Below are positions 1 through 35,382 of a stretch of 36,859 bases of DNA, one piece after another. A program made the translations under genes and the position numbers. The notes beneath the pieces are model-generated. The model saw nothing but the letters and a program-made list of their open reading frames with translations, was not told where the DNA came from and did no database searches. Position 1 is the first letter of the stretch. Each line of letters opens with the position of its first letter. Source of the stretch: a virus; IMG/VR virus record IMGVR_UViG_3300007352_000463, positions 1 to 36,859 of that record; one strand, given 5' to 3'.

Positions 1-951
1 CTAAGATTTGGAGTAGCCAAGCAACTGAAGATAGCCTTGCGTGGTCTTAAGGTTGGTATGGCCTAAGCGGTGGGATATTTCGAAGAGGCTCATGCCGGCA
101 TTGGCCCATAGAGAAGCGCGGCGGTGCCTGAGGTTGTGCCAGGAGAAAACCGGCAAATTCAATTTGACGATCTTGCGTTCCAGGAATCTCGGCAGCACCC
201 CATACGGAAACACCTTACCTTTTCCGATCTCGGTAATGCAGTCCGGCTTCGGGATACGGCGCGGAGTCAGGTTGGAGTTCCGGCTCTTGCGGGTCCATAA
301 TGTGATCAGGTCGCCGTCAATGTCGCTGTACTTAAACCGGACCGCCTCCATGATCCGACATCCCGTCTCGTCCACGAATTCAATCAACAAGCGCTGCTTG
401 TCGGTGCATTCAGCTTTCACAGCTTCGATGTGTTCGGCCGGCGGTATGTATTTCAGATTGATGTCGATCGGGTAAAAATCCAGATTGAAAGGATTTCTAA
501 GGTCCAGGTCATAGATTTTGTTTCCGTAATTGAACAGGGCTTTCAACGCCCGGAGCATAGAATTAACCTTGAAATTGGATTTTTTGGTGCGTTTGAGCCG
601 GTTGGCTTCTTTGATCAGTAAGGCATTGGCCATCGACTTGCTAAGCTCGCTGACATAGATGTCACCAAACTCAGCCAGGACTCTTTTGAAATAACGGTGG
701 TTCTCCCGGTAATAGTCCTTGGATTTTTTGGCCTTGATCTCGTCAAGCCGGTCTTCCATTAAAACTTTGAGTTTAATATCATTGACCGGGTTCCGCGCCT
801 GCGCGTCCAGTTCCTTCAGGCGCTCCCGTTCAGCTTTGGCACATTCGCCCTTGGTCAGGTAAATGGCCTTGCTATGATACTTCTGGCCCAAATACTGTCC
901 GGAATAAAACCATCTCGTTCCTTTCTTAATCTTTCTTTTGTACTGTCCCAT
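1..951 (-). CDS. int: Tyrosine recombinase / phage integrase
   Basis: Site-specific recombinase of 316 aa that would integrate and excise the phage genome. The catalytic set of the tyrosine recombinase family is visible: Arg199 in TGCRIMEA, a beta-hairpin Lys near 222, the HxLR-type box HNLRH (His272, Arg275), His298 in RLGHTN and the nucleophile Tyr307 in QGYLQL. The N-terminal about 45 residues (aromatic and basic, GxxY/F pattern) look like an arm-binding domain, followed by a core-binding SAM-like region. The ATG is preceded by a strong GGAGG. The upstream 100-aa gene overlaps its start by 26 nt, so the two are probably cotranscribed. An excisionase-like gene lies about 400 bp away on the opposite strand. 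The stop codon is the first triplet of the window, so the attachment site cannot be located from this end. Confidence 0.95.
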   Translation of the reverse strand: MGQYKRKIKKGTRWFYSGQYLGQKYHSKAIYLTKGECAKAERERLKELDAQARNPVNDIKLKVLMEDRLDEIKAKKSKDYYRENHRYFKRVLAEFGDIYVSELSKSMANALLIKEANRLKRTKKSNFKVNSMLRALKALFNYGNKIYDLDLRNPFNLDFYPIDINLKYIPPAEHIEAVKAECTDKQRLLIEFVDETGCRIMEAVRFKYSDIDGDLITLWTRKSRNSNLTPRRIPKPDCITEIGKGKVFPYGVLPRFLERKIVKLNLPVFSWHNLRHRRASLWANAGMSLFEISHRLGHTNLKTTQGYLQLLGYSKS

Positions 952-3281: not shown

Positions 3282-3354
3282 GACAGGGTAGAGTATTGGC
3301 AACTCGTCACGCTCATAACGTGAATTGATGCAGGTTCGATTCCTGCCCCTGTTA
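3282..3354 (+). tRNA. tRNA-Met (anticodon CAU; Ile2 possible)
   Basis: A full cloverleaf of 73 nt. Acceptor GACAGGG pairs with CCCTGTT (first pair G-U); D arm GAGT/ACTC with GG in the loop; anticodon stem TCACG/CGTGA with loop CTCATAA, anticodon CAT at 3314-3316; 6-nt variable loop; T arm GCAGG/CCTGC with loop TTCGATT; discriminator A; CCA not encoded. It lacks the three G-C pairs of an initiator anticodon stem, so it is an elongator Met tRNA or, if lysidine-modified, an Ile(AUA) tRNA. It lies directly downstream of the structured RNA and is probably processed from the same transcript. Confidence 0.9.
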
Positions 3355-20464: not shown

Positions 20465-21844
20465 TTATAAGCTTGTAATATTTAACTCTGGCTTGCGGTA
20501 GACTTCGAAGTACATTCTCATCATGGCCATGTCGCCAAAGTCGGTGGACCGGCCGATGTTTTCTTTGATCTCATCCTTGCCGATCAGGTAGATCTTGCCG
20601 TCCTTATCGATGTCCTTCTGTTTGATCTGGCCCAGGTCCTCGATAAAGTCATCCTTGTCCTTGCTGTCCCTGAATACTTCCTCGCCTATTTCAACCTTGC
20701 CTTCCTCGGCCAGGTCCGCGAACTTGAAATAGCATTGCGCTTTCAGGTTACCGAAATTCTGGTAATATTCTCCTTTCTGTTTCTTTATTTTGTCCGCCCG
20801 GGTGAGGATGGGCGCTGAATTATTTACGAATCCGACACAACCGGGAATATTATCAACTACGCCGCCGCCTACGCCGTCCTCATCCAATACGATGTGGCTG
20901 AACCTTATTCCTTCCTCCTGCGCCAAATTCATTATGAAATATGCGGATTTTTTGGTACTGCTTCTTATTTCATCCGGAATCAGAATGACCTTTTGCAGTT
21001 TCAAACCCTTCCAGATACCGATAGGCATTTTGTCGCGGCCTTTCCTCGATACGTCGCCGCTTATGTATTTGGTCGTGTCCTTTTTGGCTTTGTTGGTGAA
21101 CATGTCCTGGATGACATCGTAATCAAACAGGCAGGCTGGATCGTCGTCATATTCCCAATTGCCGTGCAGGAGCCTTTCCCGGGTGGCCTTGTCCTTGATG
21201 CTTTTCAGGTTTTTGATGTAGTGGGGGGAGATGAAAGGATTATCGGTTACTAATGCCTGGATAAAGCGTTTGTTGTCCTCGATATTCCGGTCCCGATTCG
21301 GTTTATAGAACTCGGTATACACCCAACCTTTGGAGGGATTGCAGGTGCCCAACATTTTCGGGATAATGCCGAATTCATCCAGTTTGTAGCGAATACGGGA
21401 TTTGACGATTGACCAGGCCTTAAAGACTATCTGATTTACTTCGTCAACAAATGCGCCGGTTATTTCCAAACTGCCAAGGCTGTCAAAATTTGGGTCGGAA
21501 GGATAAAGGAAAAGATCTTTTAAAAGGATCTGACTGCCGTTCGTGAATGTGATCGTGCCGTCCTGCGAATTATATTTGAAATCTCTTTCGTTCTTTATGT
21601 TCCAGCGGCCGCATATTTCGAAAAAGGTGTTGAGCGTGGTTTCTTTCAGGTTCTTTAATTTCGCCCGGCCCATAAGCCAACGGCTTCCCGGATACATTCC
21701 GCACATCACTATCAGCCAGGCACAGCCCAATAAGCTTTTACCGCCGCCGGCGCCGCCGCCGAATACCAGGTCGTTTGTTTCATTGTTTGTTAAGCATTGC
21801 CAGGCCTCATTCTGTTTTTTTGTTTGCTGCCAGTCTATCTCCAT
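20465..21844 (-). CDS. terL: Terminase large subunit
   Basis: A 459-aa DNA-packaging motor. The N-terminal ATPase has the Walker A segment VFGGGAGGGKS (Lys36) and Walker B with GAFVDEVNQI, followed by the coupling motif region GTCNPSKGWVY. The C-terminal RNase H-like nuclease shows the acidic motifs GDVSRKGRDK, SHIVLDEDGVGGGVVD and a late STDFGD Asp. It translocates DNA through the portal and cuts at headful or cos ends. The start overlaps the end of the small subunit gene by 38 nt. Confidence 0.93.
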   Translation of the reverse strand: MEIDWQQTKKQNEAWQCLTNNETNDLVFGGGAGGGKSLLGCAWLIVMCGMYPGSRWLMGRAKLKNLKETTLNTFFEICGRWNIKNERDFKYNSQDGTITFTNGSQILLKDLFLYPSDPNFDSLGSLEITGAFVDEVNQIVFKAWSIVKSRIRYKLDEFGIIPKMLGTCNPSKGWVYTEFYKPNRDRNIEDNKRFIQALVTDNPFISPHYIKNLKSIKDKATRERLLHGNWEYDDDPACLFDYDVIQDMFTNKAKKDTTKYISGDVSRKGRDKMPIGIWKGLKLQKVILIPDEIRSSTKKSAYFIMNLAQEEGIRFSHIVLDEDGVGGGVVDNIPGCVGFVNNSAPILTRADKIKKQKGEYYQNFGNLKAQCYFKFADLAEEGKVEIGEEVFRDSKDKDDFIEDLGQIKQKDIDKDGKIYLIGKDEIKENIGRSTDFGDMAMMRMYFEVYRKPELNITSL

Positions 21845-22238
21845 CTGATACGGTGCTAATTTTAATACTAAAGCCCTCTGACGGAGTTAATTCTATCTTT
21901 TTCAAAATCCTTTTCTTTAATTCGTTGTATTCCTTAATCGCTCCCAGCTTAGATTTGAAATCAGCGTCCTGTGTGATCAATTTTTCAAGTTGCTTGTCAA
22001 CGAATGAATCATTCAAGCCTCTTAACTCCAGCAATTCGTCAATCCGGCTTAAAATGTCAGTTTTTGTCAATAAATTAAAGGCGCTTGATTTCGCGCTATT
22101 ATACCAATTGCCAACCCTCTTCGGTTGATATGCTTCGATATATGCCTGCACCCCATTACAAAAGAACTCTTCGTCGCTTGCGTATAGTTTGCAAAACTTC
22201 TCCTGCTTGGCATTCAGTTTTTTCTTTTTGTCAGCCAT
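21807..22238 (-). CDS. terS: Terminase small subunit
   Basis: A 143-aa protein with the terminase_2 pattern: LNAKQEKFCKLYASDEEFF, QAYIEAYQPKR and TKTDILSRIDELLE, followed by a central oligomerisation helix and a C-terminal tail that binds the large subunit. It recognises the packaging site. Overlaps terL by 38 nt, implying coupled translation. Confidence 0.88.
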   Translation of the reverse strand: MADKKKKLNAKQEKFCKLYASDEEFFCNGVQAYIEAYQPKRVGNWYNSAKSSAFNLLTKTDILSRIDELLELRGLNDSFVDKQLEKLITQDADFKSKLGAIKEYNELKKRILKKIELTPSEGFSIKISTVSDGDRLAANKKTE

Positions 22239-22651: not shown

Positions 22652-22873
22652 TCAGAACAAAAAAGCCTCAAGGACATCTTCCTTAAGGCGTTCAAATTCA
22701 CTCAAATTGCGAATGTCTTTTAACATTTGGTTCACTTCGATGATGTGCAGATTAAGACGGGAGGCGATTTTACTGTCTTTCCAATCGAACAGATAATAAC
22801 AAACAAAAACCCTAAATTCCAAATTGTTCAGATCGTCTATGATCGAATAATCTTTGTTTTTTGGCTCCGCCAT
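22652..22873 (-). CDS. Small HTH-like protein, candidate late regulator
   Basis: A 73-aa protein. Residues about 30-58 (DWKDSKIASRLNLHIIEVNQ) look like a sigma-region-4 or small-terminase-type helix-turn-helix. It has its own TGGTATAAT promoter, AGGAGGT ribosome binding site, and a terminator embedded in its 3' end. A self-contained unit directly upstream of the late promoter suggests a regulator of late genes; this is inference. Confidence 0.65.
   Translation of the reverse strand: MAEPKNKDYSIIDDLNNLEFRVFVCYYLFDWKDSKIASRLNLHIIEVNQMLKDIRNLSEFERLKEDVLEAFLF
22659..22689 (-). terminator. Terminator between early regulator and late operon
   Basis: On the minus strand a 10-bp stem (22689-22680 with 22674-22665, one G-U), 5-nt loop and six U. 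The hairpin lies inside the end of the coding region; the G-U pair fixes the orientation as leftward. Confidence 0.85.
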
Positions 22874-22948: not shown

Positions 22949-23734
22949 TTAGAAAAGCTTTTTAATCGCTTCACTATCCATTCCCCGGACACTATTTTCT
23001 CTAACCGCTTTGCAAAAGCAGTATTGAGAAATTCTGCATAGGATATTTTCCGGTGCCTTGTGGATAACCAGGACTCGCTTGAAACAATTCCCGAGCAGGT
23101 TAATTTGCTCATCGGTGGCAGATTCTGCCATGAGCGCGACCGTAAACGGGAAACCTTGCCGGATGATATGAAGGCAGTCGAGGATGTCGGAAACAAGGAT
23201 CGAATAATCCGTATTAACCCGGTTGAGGTTATAGACGACATTGCCGCGCTTCGAGCCTTTTGGAAATATCCATTTCTTATCCTTCAGGTTCCAGCCCACG
23301 TAACCGGCCGGCGCCTGATCCTCGTAATAGAGCCGGAAAGCCACACAACCGGACAGGACTGATTTGGCTTTGACCTTGCCGATCTCGAATTCGGCCGCCT
23401 CCTTTTCGGTGATTCCCTGTTTCTCCATCCATGGATCATATTCCAGGGTGAGGGTTGGAATTTGGCGTTTCGGTTCCGGGATCTCGGTCAGAAATATCTT
23501 TTGCAGGTATTCAGCTGCCTGCCGGAGGTTGCAGTCCGCGTGGTCGGAATAGAAATTGATCGGAGATCCGCCTTTCTGCGTGTCTTTGTAAAAAAACATG
23601 TTCTTTTTGACCGACACGATAACCCGATCGGTTTTAATGGTGTCCTTGTCCCGGGTGAAGGGCAAATTAAGATGGTTGAAAAGAGCTTCGAAAGATACTT
23701 GTTGGCTGATTTTTTGGAAATCAAGATATTTCAT
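22949..23734 (-). CDS. Primase-like protein with zinc-less CHC2-type and degenerate TOPRIM domains
   Basis: A 261-aa protein; start at 23734 (MKYLDFQ) chosen for its GGGGGTG ribosome binding site, against a longer frame. Residues 1-85 resemble the DnaG N-terminal domain without zinc cysteines (KNMFFYKDTQKGGSPINFY, LRQAAEYLQKIF). Residues about 140-230 keep the TOPRIM framework (GYVGWNLK, ILVSDILDCLHIIRQGFPF, RVLVIHKAPEN), but the catalytic Glu position is Ser and the DxD motif is missing. So it may bind DNA or replisome parts without catalysis. Overlaps the preceding small gene by 14 nt. Confidence 0.7.
   Translation of the reverse strand: MKYLDFQKISQQVSFEALFNHLNLPFTRDKDTIKTDRVIVSVKKNMFFYKDTQKGGSPINFYSDHADCNLRQAAEYLQKIFLTEIPEPKRQIPTLTLEYDPWMEKQGITEKEAAEFEIGKVKAKSVLSGCVAFRLYYEDQAPAGYVGWNLKDKKWIFPKGSKRGNVVYNLNRVNTDYSILVSDILDCLHIIRQGFPFTVALMAESATDEQINLLGNCFKRVLVIHKAPENILCRISQYCFCKAVRENSVRGMDSEAIKKLF
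23059..23067 (-). promoter_or_regulatory. Perfect DnaA box inside the primase-like gene
   Basis: TTATCCACA on the minus strand (plus strand TGTGGATAA). It lies in coding sequence, so it may be chance. Confidence 0.3.
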
Positions 23735-24241: not shown

Positions 24242-24250
24242 ATTATATCA
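24242..24250 (-). promoter_or_regulatory. Promoter of the 24.0-kb structured RNA
   Basis: TGATATAAT on the minus strand, overlapping the last codons and stop of the coupling-ATPase gene. Same sequence as the promoter at 23962-23970. Confidence 0.55.
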
Positions 24251-25307
24251 TACACCAGTCGTCCCTTAAGAATGAGAACGTCGGTGGATTCTTCGGCGTA
24301 ATTTCTGGAGGTGGGTCGCATAACACAAGGTGGGATTTTTGGCCGATATGCACTTCAGCTTTATGTTTATCTTGCAGAATTATTTTGGTATAACAATTAG
24401 CTTCAATCATTGATTCTAAGTCTTTGGGTATCTGCGAGTAGGAGTGCATACTCATTATTACGCCAATATTGTATTTCCTGGCTTCTGCTAAAAACCTCGA
24501 AAACAAGGATGAAAAGAATAAATCAACCTCGTCCACAAAAAAGAATAACGGTTTGCTTTCTTGTGTCGCCACATGAAGATAGTAGCTCTTAACGTATATT
24601 GAAATTAAACCACCTAAAAATGCAGTTAAAAAATCGTCGAATCCACGGAAATCGAATATCACCACTTTGCCCTTTTCCACCAACTGTTCGACCGCAAAAA
24701 AATTATTACCTTGAATAAACGGCAAAATATGCTCATCATCTACCAACATGGACAATCTGGCCGAAATGCGCTTGGCTGATTCCCTTTGCTCGCGGTTAAC
24801 GTACCAACCTTTGCTGTCTTTCTCGTCAAAAGCTTTCCAGTACTTATCGTTTACCTTTTTCCGCAGTTCCTCGTATTCCAGAAATTCCGATAATCCCCCA
24901 AGGTCTTTAATCCCAATCCGGACGGCGTTCCTGATAATTTTCGCCATCAGCACCGACACTTCCACCTGGTCTTTGCTTGTAACCCTGGAGGCGGTGTTCA
25001 GAACTTCGACAAGCTCGTTCGCCATTTCCGATTTTGACAAATGTTCTCTGGTTAACGGATTGAGCGAAACTGGATTGTGTTTATTTACATAAATCGCATC
25101 GGGGTGCATTGCGTAAACCATTTCAGCCAATGCGCCGTTTGGATCAAGGATAATTTTAGCTCCGTTTACCTTGCTGATAAGATGCAAAAGTTTGGTCGTT
25201 TTACCCTGCCCGGTACCGCCAACAATAGCGACGTGTTTGTACATGTCCTTATCGTCAATGTCCGGCAAACCATCCCTTGCTTTCAACGGCATCCCAAAGC
25301 TTATCAT
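24243..25307 (-). CDS. VirD4/TraD/HerA-type coupling ATPase
   Basis: A 354-aa soluble P-loop ATPase of the FtsK-HerA superfamily, VirD4/TraD branch. Walker A is VGGTGQGKTT (Lys36), followed by the strand ending in ILDPNGALAEM; Walker B is PLFFFVDEVD (Asp259, Glu260); the sensor-type MSMHSYSQIP follows. Type IV coupling proteins normally carry N-terminal membrane helices; here these are absent and a separate two-helix membrane protein is encoded directly upstream with an ATGA overlap. A pump or DNA-delivery role is suggested. GAGGT precedes the ATG. No relaxase or secretion channel is in the window. Confidence 0.8.
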   Translation of the reverse strand: MISFGMPLKARDGLPDIDDKDMYKHVAIVGGTGQGKTTKLLHLISKVNGAKIILDPNGALAEMVYAMHPDAIYVNKHNPVSLNPLTREHLSKSEMANELVEVLNTASRVTSKDQVEVSVLMAKIIRNAVRIGIKDLGGLSEFLEYEELRKKVNDKYWKAFDEKDSKGWYVNREQRESAKRISARLSMLVDDEHILPFIQGNNFFAVEQLVEKGKVVIFDFRGFDDFLTAFLGGLISIYVKSYYLHVATQESKPLFFFVDEVDLFFSSLFSRFLAEARKYNIGVIMSMHSYSQIPKDLESMIEANCYTKIILQDKHKAEVHIGQKSHLVLCDPPPEITPKNPPTFSFLRDDWCMI

Positions 25308-26002
25308 TTGTACCTCTTTCTGGTTTCTTTAACGGTTAACCCATCAAGATCGGCTTGATATCTTTTTTGCCTGCCTTCCTGCGTTAAATTATACGTTTCG
25401 GCCTTTATGCGGTTGAGCTGTTCTTCGACCATTCTTTCCTGGCCAATGCTTATGCCGGTATCAGCACTCGGATTCAATAATTTTAAAAGCAAATGGGCTT
25501 CATTCGGGGTGATGTTCTTTGCTTCCGCTTCCAGGCTGATTTTATTTAAAATCTCTGCTTGTGTGTTTGTTATGTTGGAGTTGCTTAATATCTGCATGAT
25601 TTCGGCGTTCAGCTTGTTTATTTCGGCTTTTAAATGATTGGTTATTTGTTCGCCGTGCAGGTTGGCCATCCGGCCCATGCGGTCGAGTGTAAGTGTTCTC
25701 TCTTTTAGCGTGGCCAATTCCGCGTCTTGTTGCGCTCTTTGCATTCTTTTTTGGTGGTCTTCTTCATTCAATGGTTCAGCGGCGGCCATTTCATCATGCA
25801 AGCTAAAAAGGAAGTATATAGATCTGAATAAAAAATGTGCATTTTTATTTTTGCCTTTTTCATTGGCGGCAAACAAAGCCCCCGTGTATAAACACATTAT
25901 CAAAAAACCGACAATACAGGTGGCGGCGATATTGTGGGTCAAGGCCCAAATAAAATAAAACATAAAAGCACTCGGCAGTCCAATTATCGCCACAACTATC
26001 AT
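25304..26002 (-). CDS. Membrane protein with long cytoplasmic coiled coil
   Basis: A 232-aa protein; start at ATG 26002 (MIVVAIIG) has GGAGG 7 nt upstream. Two transmembrane segments (about residues 1-20 and 24-44) are followed by about 185 residues of charged helix with heptads (EEDHQKRMQRAQQDAELATL, LKAEINKLNAEIMQIL). Its start overlaps the upstream gene and its stop overlaps the ATPase start, both by ATGA, so the three are translationally coupled. It looks like the membrane anchor of the soluble ATPase. Confidence 0.75.
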   Translation of the reverse strand: MIVVAIIGLPSAFMFYFIWALTHNIAATCIVGFLIMCLYTGALFAANEKGKNKNAHFLFRSIYFLFSLHDEMAAAEPLNEEDHQKRMQRAQQDAELATLKERTLTLDRMGRMANLHGEQITNHLKAEINKLNAEIMQILSNSNITNTQAEILNKISLEAEAKNITPNEAHLLLKLLNPSADTGISIGQERMVEEQLNRIKAETYNLTQEGRQKRYQADLDGLTVKETRKRYK

Positions 26003-26643
26003 AGAATCCTCCAAGCAACAGAAAAACAGAAGTTATCAATCGAACACATCGGCAACCCCAACTGTCCGGCGTGGTAAGCCCACCACTTGTGATAAGTATT
26101 GCCGTCCTTTGCCACCTGTTCATATTTGGCTTGCTTTTCCTCGGTGTAACCCCTCGGCTTATCGCTGACCTCAACTTCGCCGAACTCGATCTTGTAAGCA
26201 CTGTCACGTTTTCGGATCAGGCAATAATCAGGGATCAGATAAATCTCGGTATAGTCTGGCGGTCGCTTGAAAATCGGGTAAAAAACGCTGTAAAAATCAG
26301 GCTCATTAAACAGTCCAAAAATTACAGAGGATAGCTTTTGCTGGTGTTGGGCGGCTTCCCCCTGTAATTTCTTCTGTAAAATCCTGGTATTGAACCCCTC
26401 TTTGTGCATTAATTCCAGGGATTTATCTCTGTAAAAATAATAATCCCCGGTTTGGCCGATATAACCGAGGTCAACGAGGCTTTTTAGTTTCTTGGGAGTG
26501 GCTAACTTGTTGTTTATGGCGTTTAATTGGGGCTTGGTGCCGTACCGGGCGAGGGCGAGCTTATATAATAGGTGCGCGAGCTGTCTTATCGAACTTCCAG
26601 CTATGATCGGTTCAAGGTCCGGGAATTGTTGAATTTTTCTGAT
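25999..26643 (-). CDS. Replication-relaxation-type protein, apparent AUC start
   Basis: About 214 aa. The frame is open from ATC 26643, 8 nt after a perfect GGAGG, and has no in-frame ATG, GTG or TTG until ATG 26409; an in-frame stop lies just upstream. Residues about 1-80 form a winged helix (SSIRQLAHLLYKLALARYG, KLKSLVDLGYIGQTG, DYYFYRDKSLEL). The C-terminal part has the family pattern IYLIPDYCLIRKRD, EFGEVEVSDKP and YTEEKQAKYEQVA, also seen in PD-(D/E)xK-like folds. Family members occur on plasmids beside coupling proteins and relaxases. Starting only at 26409 would delete the DNA-binding domain. Confidence 0.7.
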   Translation of the reverse strand: MRKIQQFPDLEPIIAGSSIRQLAHLLYKLALARYGTKPQLNAINNKLATPKKLKSLVDLGYIGQTGDYYFYRDKSLELMHKEGFNTRILQKKLQGEAAQHQQKLSSVIFGLFNEPDFYSVFYPIFKRPPDYTEIYLIPDYCLIRKRDSAYKIEFGEVEVSDKPRGYTEEKQAKYEQVAKDGNTYHKWWAYHAGQLGLPMCSIDNFCFSVAWRIL

Positions 26644-26658
26644 TTTTTATACCTCCGT

Positions 26659-26746
26659 ATAAAAGCGGGCTTTTATCGGACCTGTAGCGGACATATCAAA
26701 AATATCAATGGATTGAAAGGTTTTTGATGTGGCTGCGATAGGTCCG
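26659..26746 (-). promoter_or_regulatory. Structured leader before the replication-relaxation gene
   Basis: On the minus strand, nested helices CGGACCT/AGGTCCG (26746-26740 with 26683-26677) and ATCAAAAA/TTTTTGAT (26728-26721 with 26702-26695), then a 7-bp hairpin ATAAAAG/CTTTTAT (26676-26659) that abuts the ribosome binding site GGAGG (26656-26652). The arrangement could gate translation of the AUC-start gene. Confidence 0.5.
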
Positions 26747-34644: not shown

Positions 34645-35382
34645 TTAATTTATTAACCTACACCTCTGTCCATCCGGCCTAAACCACACGGACTGGTGTA
34701 TTTTATTAAAATCATGAAATGACATAAAACGGTAGTAATACTTGCAGCCCTTAGACAACCTGATCAACTCTTGCACGCTTTCTTTCGATTTCGCGATTTC
34801 GGCGCCTAACCGGCAATATTCAAGCGGCCGCCAACTGAAATCCCAGATCCTGGGAGCGAACGCAAACAAAACAATAGCGCTTTTGAATTCACCTTTACGC
34901 TTCATTTTCTCGTAACGCTTTATCTTGTTTTCGAATATCTGCAATGGCGTTAAGGATTTTTCCAGCTCAACTATAAAAACATATTTCCCGGTCCGGACAA
35001 CCAGGTCACTTCTAATGTCGGTGCCGTCAACCGGGATTTTCTCCTCATAACTTAATTGGCAATCCTCAAAGCGGTAATTGAACGCCATAGCCAGGTCAGC
35101 GAGCATCGACCGGTGCGCAACTGAATTGAAATCAAGCTCTATCTGCTTAGTGCCGTAAAAGGCGTATTTCTTGTTATTCACGCCGATGAAATTGGATAGC
35201 CTGGCAGGTTTGATTAATCCGGCCTTGCATAATTTACTAATATATCGGGAAGGAGAGGCTAAGGAAGAATCAAGCTTATTCGAAGATTCATTCGTATAGG
35301 GTTGGAGCGTGTACGCCGTAAAATCCCTAATAGCGGAAACAAGGCGGTGGATGTCTATAATTGTGTGTTTGGATCGGGTCAT
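34645..35382 (-). CDS. Replication-relaxation/nuclease-like protein (second)
   Basis: A 245-aa protein. Residues about 1-75 may form a winged helix (SRYISKLCKAGLIKPARLS, KKYAFYGTKQIEL). Residues about 105-180 carry GTDIRSDLVVRTGKYVFIVE, ELEKS, and KIKRYEKMKRKGEFKSAIV, an Asp...Glu-x-Glu pattern of PD-(D/E)xK-like folds shared with replication-relaxation proteins. It resembles in plan the 25999-26643 product. Role likely in DNA transactions; not certain. Confidence 0.6.
   Translation of the reverse strand: MTRSKHTIIDIHRLVSAIRDFTAYTLQPYTNESSNKLDSSLASPSRYISKLCKAGLIKPARLSNFIGVNNKKYAFYGTKQIELDFNSVAHRSMLADLAMAFNYRFEDCQLSYEEKIPVDGTDIRSDLVVRTGKYVFIVELEKSLTPLQIFENKIKRYEKMKRKGEFKSAIVLFAFAPRIWDFSWRPLEYCRLGAEIAKSKESVQELIRLSKGCKYYYRFMSFHDFNKIHQSVWFRPDGQRCRLIN

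Follow-up and report, generated by a model that had tools for sequence, protein, structure and literature searches.

Phages and conjugative elements are usually regarded as separate gene-transfer routes. Some integrative mobilisable elements (IMEs) bring their own relaxase and coupling protein and no type IV secretion system (T4SS); those of streptococcal class 8 combine VirD4 with a relaxase of PF13814, the MOBC relaxase superfamily in those elements (PMC5357655). MOBC relaxases are PD-(D/E)XK-related, and pAD1 TraX has an N-terminal winged helix-turn-helix (HTH) (PMC12857230). Most, not all, type IV coupling proteins (T4CPs) carry an N-terminal domain with two transmembrane (TM) helices, and those without the transmembrane domain (TMD) are a recognised class that may pair with a membrane protein in a complex of the VirD4 type (PMC7431656). 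Considered here is a block of genes in a virus record, IMGVR_UViG_3300007352_000463 of IMG/VR, whose positions 1 to 36,859, the whole stretch analysed, are called the window. At its core are three overlapping genes, for a winged-helix (WH) protein, a membrane coiled-coil protein and a VirD4-like ATPase.

The likeness to described MOBC plus VirD4 systems (streptococcal IME class 8, CloDF13 MobC/MobB, and TraX of pAD1 and pAM373) lies in the combination of a coupling ATPase with what is probably a winged-helix, restriction-endonuclease-like member of the PF13814 relaxase superfamily and, for the streptococcal IMEs, in the further presence of an integrase with no T4SS. PF13814 and T4CP genes are also found close together, no more than a few kb apart, on pAM373 and on plasmids of Geobacillus, Paenibacillus and Lysinibacillus. 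Unlike those MOBC systems, the block here is carried by both tailed phages and integrative elements and in other phyla, its integrase is of the tyrosine and not the serine type, its ATPase is TMD-less, and there are extra genes for an anchor and a DnaG-like protein. TraJ and TraI of pIP501, likened here by description, are soluble coupling ATPases for which membrane anchoring in trans has been proposed, whereas the present element is without T4SS genes and its anchor is a coiled-coil or zinc-ribbon protein. Also compared by description, the TdtA-NurA transjugation system of Thermus ICEth1 has a HerA/FtsK-superfamily ATPase, a small tRNA-inserted element and DNA donation; there, however, NurA and a type IIG enzyme replace a MOBC-like relaxase, no anchor protein is involved and phages are not the carriers. 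Among phages, Bacillus tyroviruses (gp17-gp18) and Novomoskovsk and Bolokhovo combine a T4SS- or FtsK-type gene with a replication-relaxation gene, a pairing read by the authors concerned as plasmid-like (PMC9703825, PMC9658697). The view of the initial annotation that such a function was not described for siphoviruses is thus only partly true; yet those pairs were tied to plasmid-maintenance ParM and ribbon-helix-helix (RHH) proteins, with no anchor reported and no fixed slot before the terminase genes. For the five-gene block, its pre-terminase slot and its sharing with defence-carrying elements, no report was found in the open-access literature.

The block is a real, conserved and selected module, and the case for its being a relaxase plus a coupling protein is fairly strong. 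That the three genes are the core of a five-gene mobilisation-type module for DNA processing and DNA pumping is a reading on which confidence is evenly balanced, and a function in transfer may be right about as readily as wrong. Passage of phage DNA across a membrane or to a cell pole, as suggested in the initial annotation, is likewise no more than a possibility. The mobilisation reading is favoured because a relaxase-superfamily protein, coupling ATPase, anchor and integrase without a T4SS match the published composition of IMEs.

Architecture of the block

The conserved genes in the window are as follows.

25999..26643, minus strand: winged-helix protein with a putative PD-(D/E)XK-like domain, a candidate relaxase of MOBC type (PF13814 superfamily via relatives)
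25304..26002, minus strand: membrane anchor, with an N-terminal two-TM hairpin and a long coiled coil (TM scan, alignment and hidden Markov model (HMM) matches)
24243..25307, minus strand: soluble TrwB/VirD4-class ATPase (PF10412, fold match)
22949..23734, minus strand: degenerate DnaG-like protein (CHC2/TOPRIM region), the next conserved gene of the block (phrog_47 DNA primase, 7e-13)

The positions given for the first three (26643-25999, 26002-25304 and 25307-24243) are correct, and both junctions have the ATGA overlap that had been described, GATTCTATGATAG and ACAAATGATAAG. The WH open reading frame spans 26646-25999 (minus strand). It has no ATG, GTG or TTG close to its N-terminus and probably starts at ATC (26643), which GGAGG precedes by 8 nt. 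WH relatives, unlike the window copy, begin with ATG, and the ATC start could reduce expression or reflect a sequence error.

The identification of the ATPase as a coupling-protein-like motor of the VirD4/TrwB class is fairly strong. It matches PF10412 TrwB_AAD_bind (2e-13) and PF01935 HerA (2e-11), has a Walker A motif GGTGQGKT at residues 30-37 and a Walker B motif FFFVDE (hhhhDE, with DE at 259-260), and ends in a C-terminal tail FxFLxDDWxxI that, as FxFLxDDWxxV, is conserved in most copies. Its AlphaFold2 model (pLDDT 86.5) has a TrwB-like fold including the all-alpha domain, with TrwB 1e9r as the best Foldseek match (E 8.5e-12, TMq 0.65-0.70, ~400 columns) and HerA behind it (TMq ~0.55). 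No TM helix was seen in a hydrophobicity scan, and the N-terminal two-TM domain of T4CPs is not in the same chain, so that the earlier description of a VirD4-like ATPase lacking its own membrane helices is upheld.

The missing hairpin is to be found next door. In the window the coiled-coil protein has a hydrophobic hairpin at residues 1-47 and no other TM segment, and by hydrophobicity scan the two-TM hairpin is likewise within the coiled-coil protein itself in L047 and L048. In other relatives it is in a separate zinc-ribbon protein and the coiled coil is then soluble. Nearly all scanned loci thus have the hairpin, its position moving between the two proteins, with L046 as the exception where the same kind of scan gave no clear TM in either. 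A coupling protein split into anchor and motor, as had been proposed, is borne out by this, and the split fits the recognised TMD-less T4CP class with a membrane partner in trans.

Sequence comparison indicates fairly strongly, by way of relatives, that the WH protein is a member of the PF13814/MOBC relaxase superfamily, and nicking is a predicted activity. A relative in L045, 34% identical to the window protein, exceeds the PF13814 Replic_Relax cut-off (26.1 vs 25.3 bits), as does, with a similar score, the pAM373 relaxase that is typed MOBC in PLSDB, and the L045 and G323 copies match phrog_9381, 'replication initiation by nicking'. P139-D140, E157-x-E159 and K171 are invariant across an alignment of 10 WH sequences, and by eye the pAM373 relaxase has a similar D...FEIEL...K pattern. 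The AlphaFold2 model (pLDDT 88) places a mixed alpha/beta domain after a winged helix. It is these Pfam scores, the phrog_9381 matches, the MOBC layout and the invariant D/ExE/K residues that argue for a relaxase. The initial annotation saw in this protein a DNA-recognition subunit; the winged helix is there, but the second, apparently PD-(D/E)XK-like domain of the model suggests more than mere recognition. Its companion statement, that neither relaxase nor secretion channel is present, falls for the relaxase on the probable superfamily membership and stands for the channel, no T4SS gene being recognised in the prophage described below or in the capsid-less elements.

Recurrence and selection

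Neither phages and plasmids nor IMG/VR and GTDB contigs yielded any match in single-sequence searches with the window ATPase, and relatives of the block surfaced only by whole-genome and profile searches, collinear copies being called with local HMMs. The whole-genome search yielded ATPases 45% and 30% identical in two genomes of the same family and order, with the companion genes adjoining. In all, the collinear block is present in 18 independent loci: the window, G022, G046, G323 (=L070), L045-L050, L061, L066 (a truncated copy), L067, L071, L072, L074/L075 (counted as one element), L082 and L083. They are spread over several phyla, in Desulfobacterales, Ignavibacteria and Kapaibacteria, and over metagenomic phages; the hosts with names are Desulfococcaceae, Ignavibacteria, Stygiobacter, bacterium BRH_c32 and Candidatus Kapaibacterium. 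Most often the genes run WH, TM/zinc-ribbon, coiled coil, ATPase and DnaG-like; G046 differs in having the zinc-ribbon gene after the ATPase. The three genes had been regarded as the unit, and together they are, though not as the complete set since two more conserved genes belong to the block; their co-occurrence elsewhere, which had been put forward as a check, is found in the same order at all these loci.

The block is under purifying selection. Ratios of nonsynonymous to synonymous polymorphism (pN/pS) in close pairs are 0.11-0.31 for the ATPase, 0.19-0.23 for WH, 0.11-0.23 for the DnaG-like gene and, for the coiled coil, 0.45, synonymous sites being close to saturation for the most part. 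Recurrence of the order in independent loci together with the low ATPase values argues against chance. Most weak matches of the whole-genome search were discarded as short P-loop similarity to proteins mostly of 600-1100 aa, and L044 (22% identity, a 761-aa protein) was excluded as not belonging to the family.

The DnaG-like protein has similarity to the primase N-region, and alignment, judged by inspection, points to loss of its TOPRIM catalytic motifs. Its gene follows that of the ATPase in 16 of the 18 loci and is missing from the G022 and G046 copies. It also occurs alone, without the other three genes, in the Ignavibacteria contigs L073, L077 and L078, and so is not strictly tied to the block.

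Phage and capsid-less carriers

In the window the block is in an integrated tailed prophage with terminase, portal, major head and tail genes. The prophage is ~42 kb and its ends are a 46-bp direct repeat of the 3' part of tRNA-Phe (contig positions 61250 and 19343). Other features of it to be mentioned are these.

1..951, minus strand: tyrosine integrase of the prophage (PF00589)
20465..22238, minus strand: genes for both terminase subunits, small and large, following the block (phrog_979 TerL, 3e-28)
22652..22873, minus strand: 73-aa sigma-like HTH protein between block and terminase, kept in phage loci
27538..28971, minus strand: ParB (PF02195, 1.9e-24)

Ten related phage contigs or prophages also carry the block, and in 11 loci (the window, G323, L045-L050, L061, L066 and L067) terminase genes are directly downstream of it, usually after the small HTH gene; TerL was recognised by profile in the window and L048 and by inspection in the remainder. 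The HTH gene has a matching position in L046-L050, L061, L066 and L067, its L048 copy having a phrog_1190 sigma factor match (0.004).

At least six carriers are capsid-less integrated elements: no capsid or terminase genes were seen at G022, G046 (whose contig begins 2.4 kb before the block, leaving the element incomplete), G767/G769, G768, G770 and L082. Five of the six share the integrase family of the window prophage (phmmer), and most hold anti-phage defence cargo: Gabija in G022 (GajA, 1e-244), PDC-S06 in G046, type III restriction-modification plus Septu in G768, and IetAS in G767. G767/G769 and G768 have a common backbone of HTH, ArdC-like, RadC, ERF, SSB-like, block and integrase genes, named partly from relation to phage copies and partly by eye, and differ in cargo. 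The G022 island (~34.5 kb) is inserted at tRNA-Lys, and G028 lacks it, having an empty site at which the two flanks join with 50 bp of overlap. Attachment-site repeats were not found for G046 or G323, nor flanking repeats for G767/G768. By analogy, the capsid-less elements may be regarded as IMEs, having an integrase, the block and, at G022, site-specific insertion, with relaxase activity and mobilisation assumed.

The G022 island looks composite. It has a second, canonical Replic_Relax protein (L105:7075-8040, PF13814 3e-16), and it also encodes a CHC2/TOPRIM primase (L105:2948-3946).

The region upstream of the WH gene

A ~220-bp conserved non-coding stretch precedes the WH gene in ten loci, both phage and non-phage (L046, L047, L048, L049, L050, L061, L071, L075, L083 and L112). 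It has CTGTAAAT copies ~51 bp apart, a terminator-like hairpin and, adjoining the start codon, inverted TTTACAG copies 12 bp apart. The element could be a relaxase binding site, an operator or a leader. In those loci that were scanned no Rfam family turned up there, and RNAalifold gave few compensatory pairs (2/24); with covariation this weak no RNA is claimed. The window and L045 have a different upstream element in common.

26677..26746, no strand assigned: imperfect inverted repeat of 26 nt (81%) ahead of the WH gene, with a partial match upstream of the L045 WH gene

This repeat is a candidate cis-site, whether origin of transfer (oriT) or other binding site, operator or terminator.

What the block may do

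For mobilisation the following sequence of events is envisaged. The integrase would first excise the element, and the WH domain would bind a cis-site upstream of its own gene for the PD-(D/E)XK-like domain to nick. The nicked DNA would be passed to a hexameric ATPase held at the inner membrane in complex with the two-TM coiled-coil anchor, and the ATPase would pump it to another cell or onto another machine, the DnaG-like protein perhaps being an accessory of the module. In the window the module rides on a temperate tailed phage, and in relatives the same backbone has defence genes in place of a capsid. The bolder thought is of a tailed temperate phage family that also moves itself or hitchhikers by a conjugation-like route, swapping capsid and defence payloads on one backbone of integrase, early genes, relaxase and split coupling ATPase, with a pump that works without a recognisable T4SS in the host; it is distinctly doubtful.

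Several considerations weigh against mobilisation. The window WH protein itself is without a Pfam match (below detection). Its model has weak fold matches in the PDB (top, FokI, E 0.07), and profile comparison with pAM373 MOBC gave a probability of 7%, too weak to use. As to the ATPase, TrwB and HerA cannot be told apart by sequence profiles alone. Conserved repeats were seen ahead of the WH gene, but no oriT is demonstrated. No VirB4 family member (PF03135) was found in 8 host genomes, a mating channel thus being missing from the sampled hosts, and the benefit of conjugal transfer to phages is not obvious.

The main rival is a replication module, which would replicate the excised element. In it the WH/nuclease protein would initiate replication of the rolling-circle type, the ATPase would act as a helicase or translocase tethered to the membrane, and the DnaG-like protein would assist. 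It has the wording of the phrog_9381 label in its favour, as well as the frequent adjacency of the DnaG-like gene, the ERF, SSB-like and NinB-like genes of the early regions, and the lack of a recognised DNA polymerase or DnaB helicase among the genes tested; further, MOBC proteins can act as multifunctional initiators of rolling-circle replication (PMC5714925). Nevertheless, the DnaG-like protein has lost its TOPRIM catalytic motifs, by inspection, and is missing from two copies of the block, a membrane anchor with a TrwB-class ATPase would be unusual in a replisome, and the window has another, weak 'replication initiation protein' candidate at 34645-35382 (phrog_2190, 1.7e-4). Replication is a serious possibility, if an unlikely one.

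The lack of VirB4 implies for mobilisation either a non-resident helper or a pump that works alone as described for Thermus TdtA. The latter leads to the thought of a channel-independent pump for double-stranded DNA, like Streptomyces TraB or TdtA, with the ATPase moving DNA at the membrane without any T4SS. TdtA, whose gene shares an operon with nuclease genes on a small ICE, is a HerA-like hexamer and partly membrane-associated (PMC5365140). However, the best fold match of the ATPase here is TrwB and not HerA, and there is no NurA partner, no Pfam match to that nuclease being found among the ATPase neighbours; such a pump is improbable. PF19044 matches in the host genomes are the module's own ATPases, except for one weak match in G046.

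A HerA-type nuclease-ATPase system of defence or counter-defence would have the requisite HerA-related ATPase and PD-(D/E)XK-like protein, structural matches of the ATPase include SIR2-HerA and DUF4297-HerA, and defence genes adjoin the block in the elements. Against this, the block stays the same whatever the defence cargo, the layout of the WH protein is that of a relaxase family, and the conserved anchor and DnaG-like gene are left unexplained, so that the proposal is very improbable. A role in packaging or the virion, with the ATPase feeding DNA to terminase or procapsid or serving DNA ejection, was suggested by the position directly upstream of terminase but is scarcely credible. The phages have their own TerL, and the idea was dropped since elements in which no capsid genes were seen keep the block, along with an integrase and defence cargo.

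The block resembles the parts of bacterial conjugation that nick and pump DNA, and a single DNA-handling engine seems to serve both viruses and conjugation-like mobile elements here. The case is a testable one, since the relaxase-plus-coupling block is fixed in the same slot of tailed phages and of elements that have no capsid, carry defence genes and use a related integrase. The block is an entry point to phage/IME exchange and to the movement of defence islands in Ignavibacteria and Desulfobacterales, and also to coupling ATPases that operate without a resident T4SS.

Neighbouring genes and minor observations

The degenerate TOPRIM protein, ParB, DUF932 and RadC noted earlier near the three genes were all recovered, and the prophage also encodes an N6-methylase and, outside the window, ParA. 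The pAM373 MOBC relaxase, like the 34645-35382 product, matches phrog_2190, and that product may be a second TraX-like N-domain or Rep. In the BFVD the WH model matches Bacillus phage G gp146 (E 6e-7), this and the other matches (below 1e-3) being phage proteins without a named function. ARAGORN gives a tRNA gene with a Met anticodon at window positions 3282-3354, near that end of the prophage which has the integrase.

Three phage contigs (L047:6197-7646, L048:6196-7645 and L067:450-1899) have, immediately before the block and divergently oriented, a nucleotidyltransferase gene (CD-NTase-like by eye) with a small TM gene, a pair that resembles a short CBASS-like operon. Directly upstream of the block on the Kapaibacterium contig, at L082:822-2483, is a gene for a protein with, by eye, a TIR-like domain.

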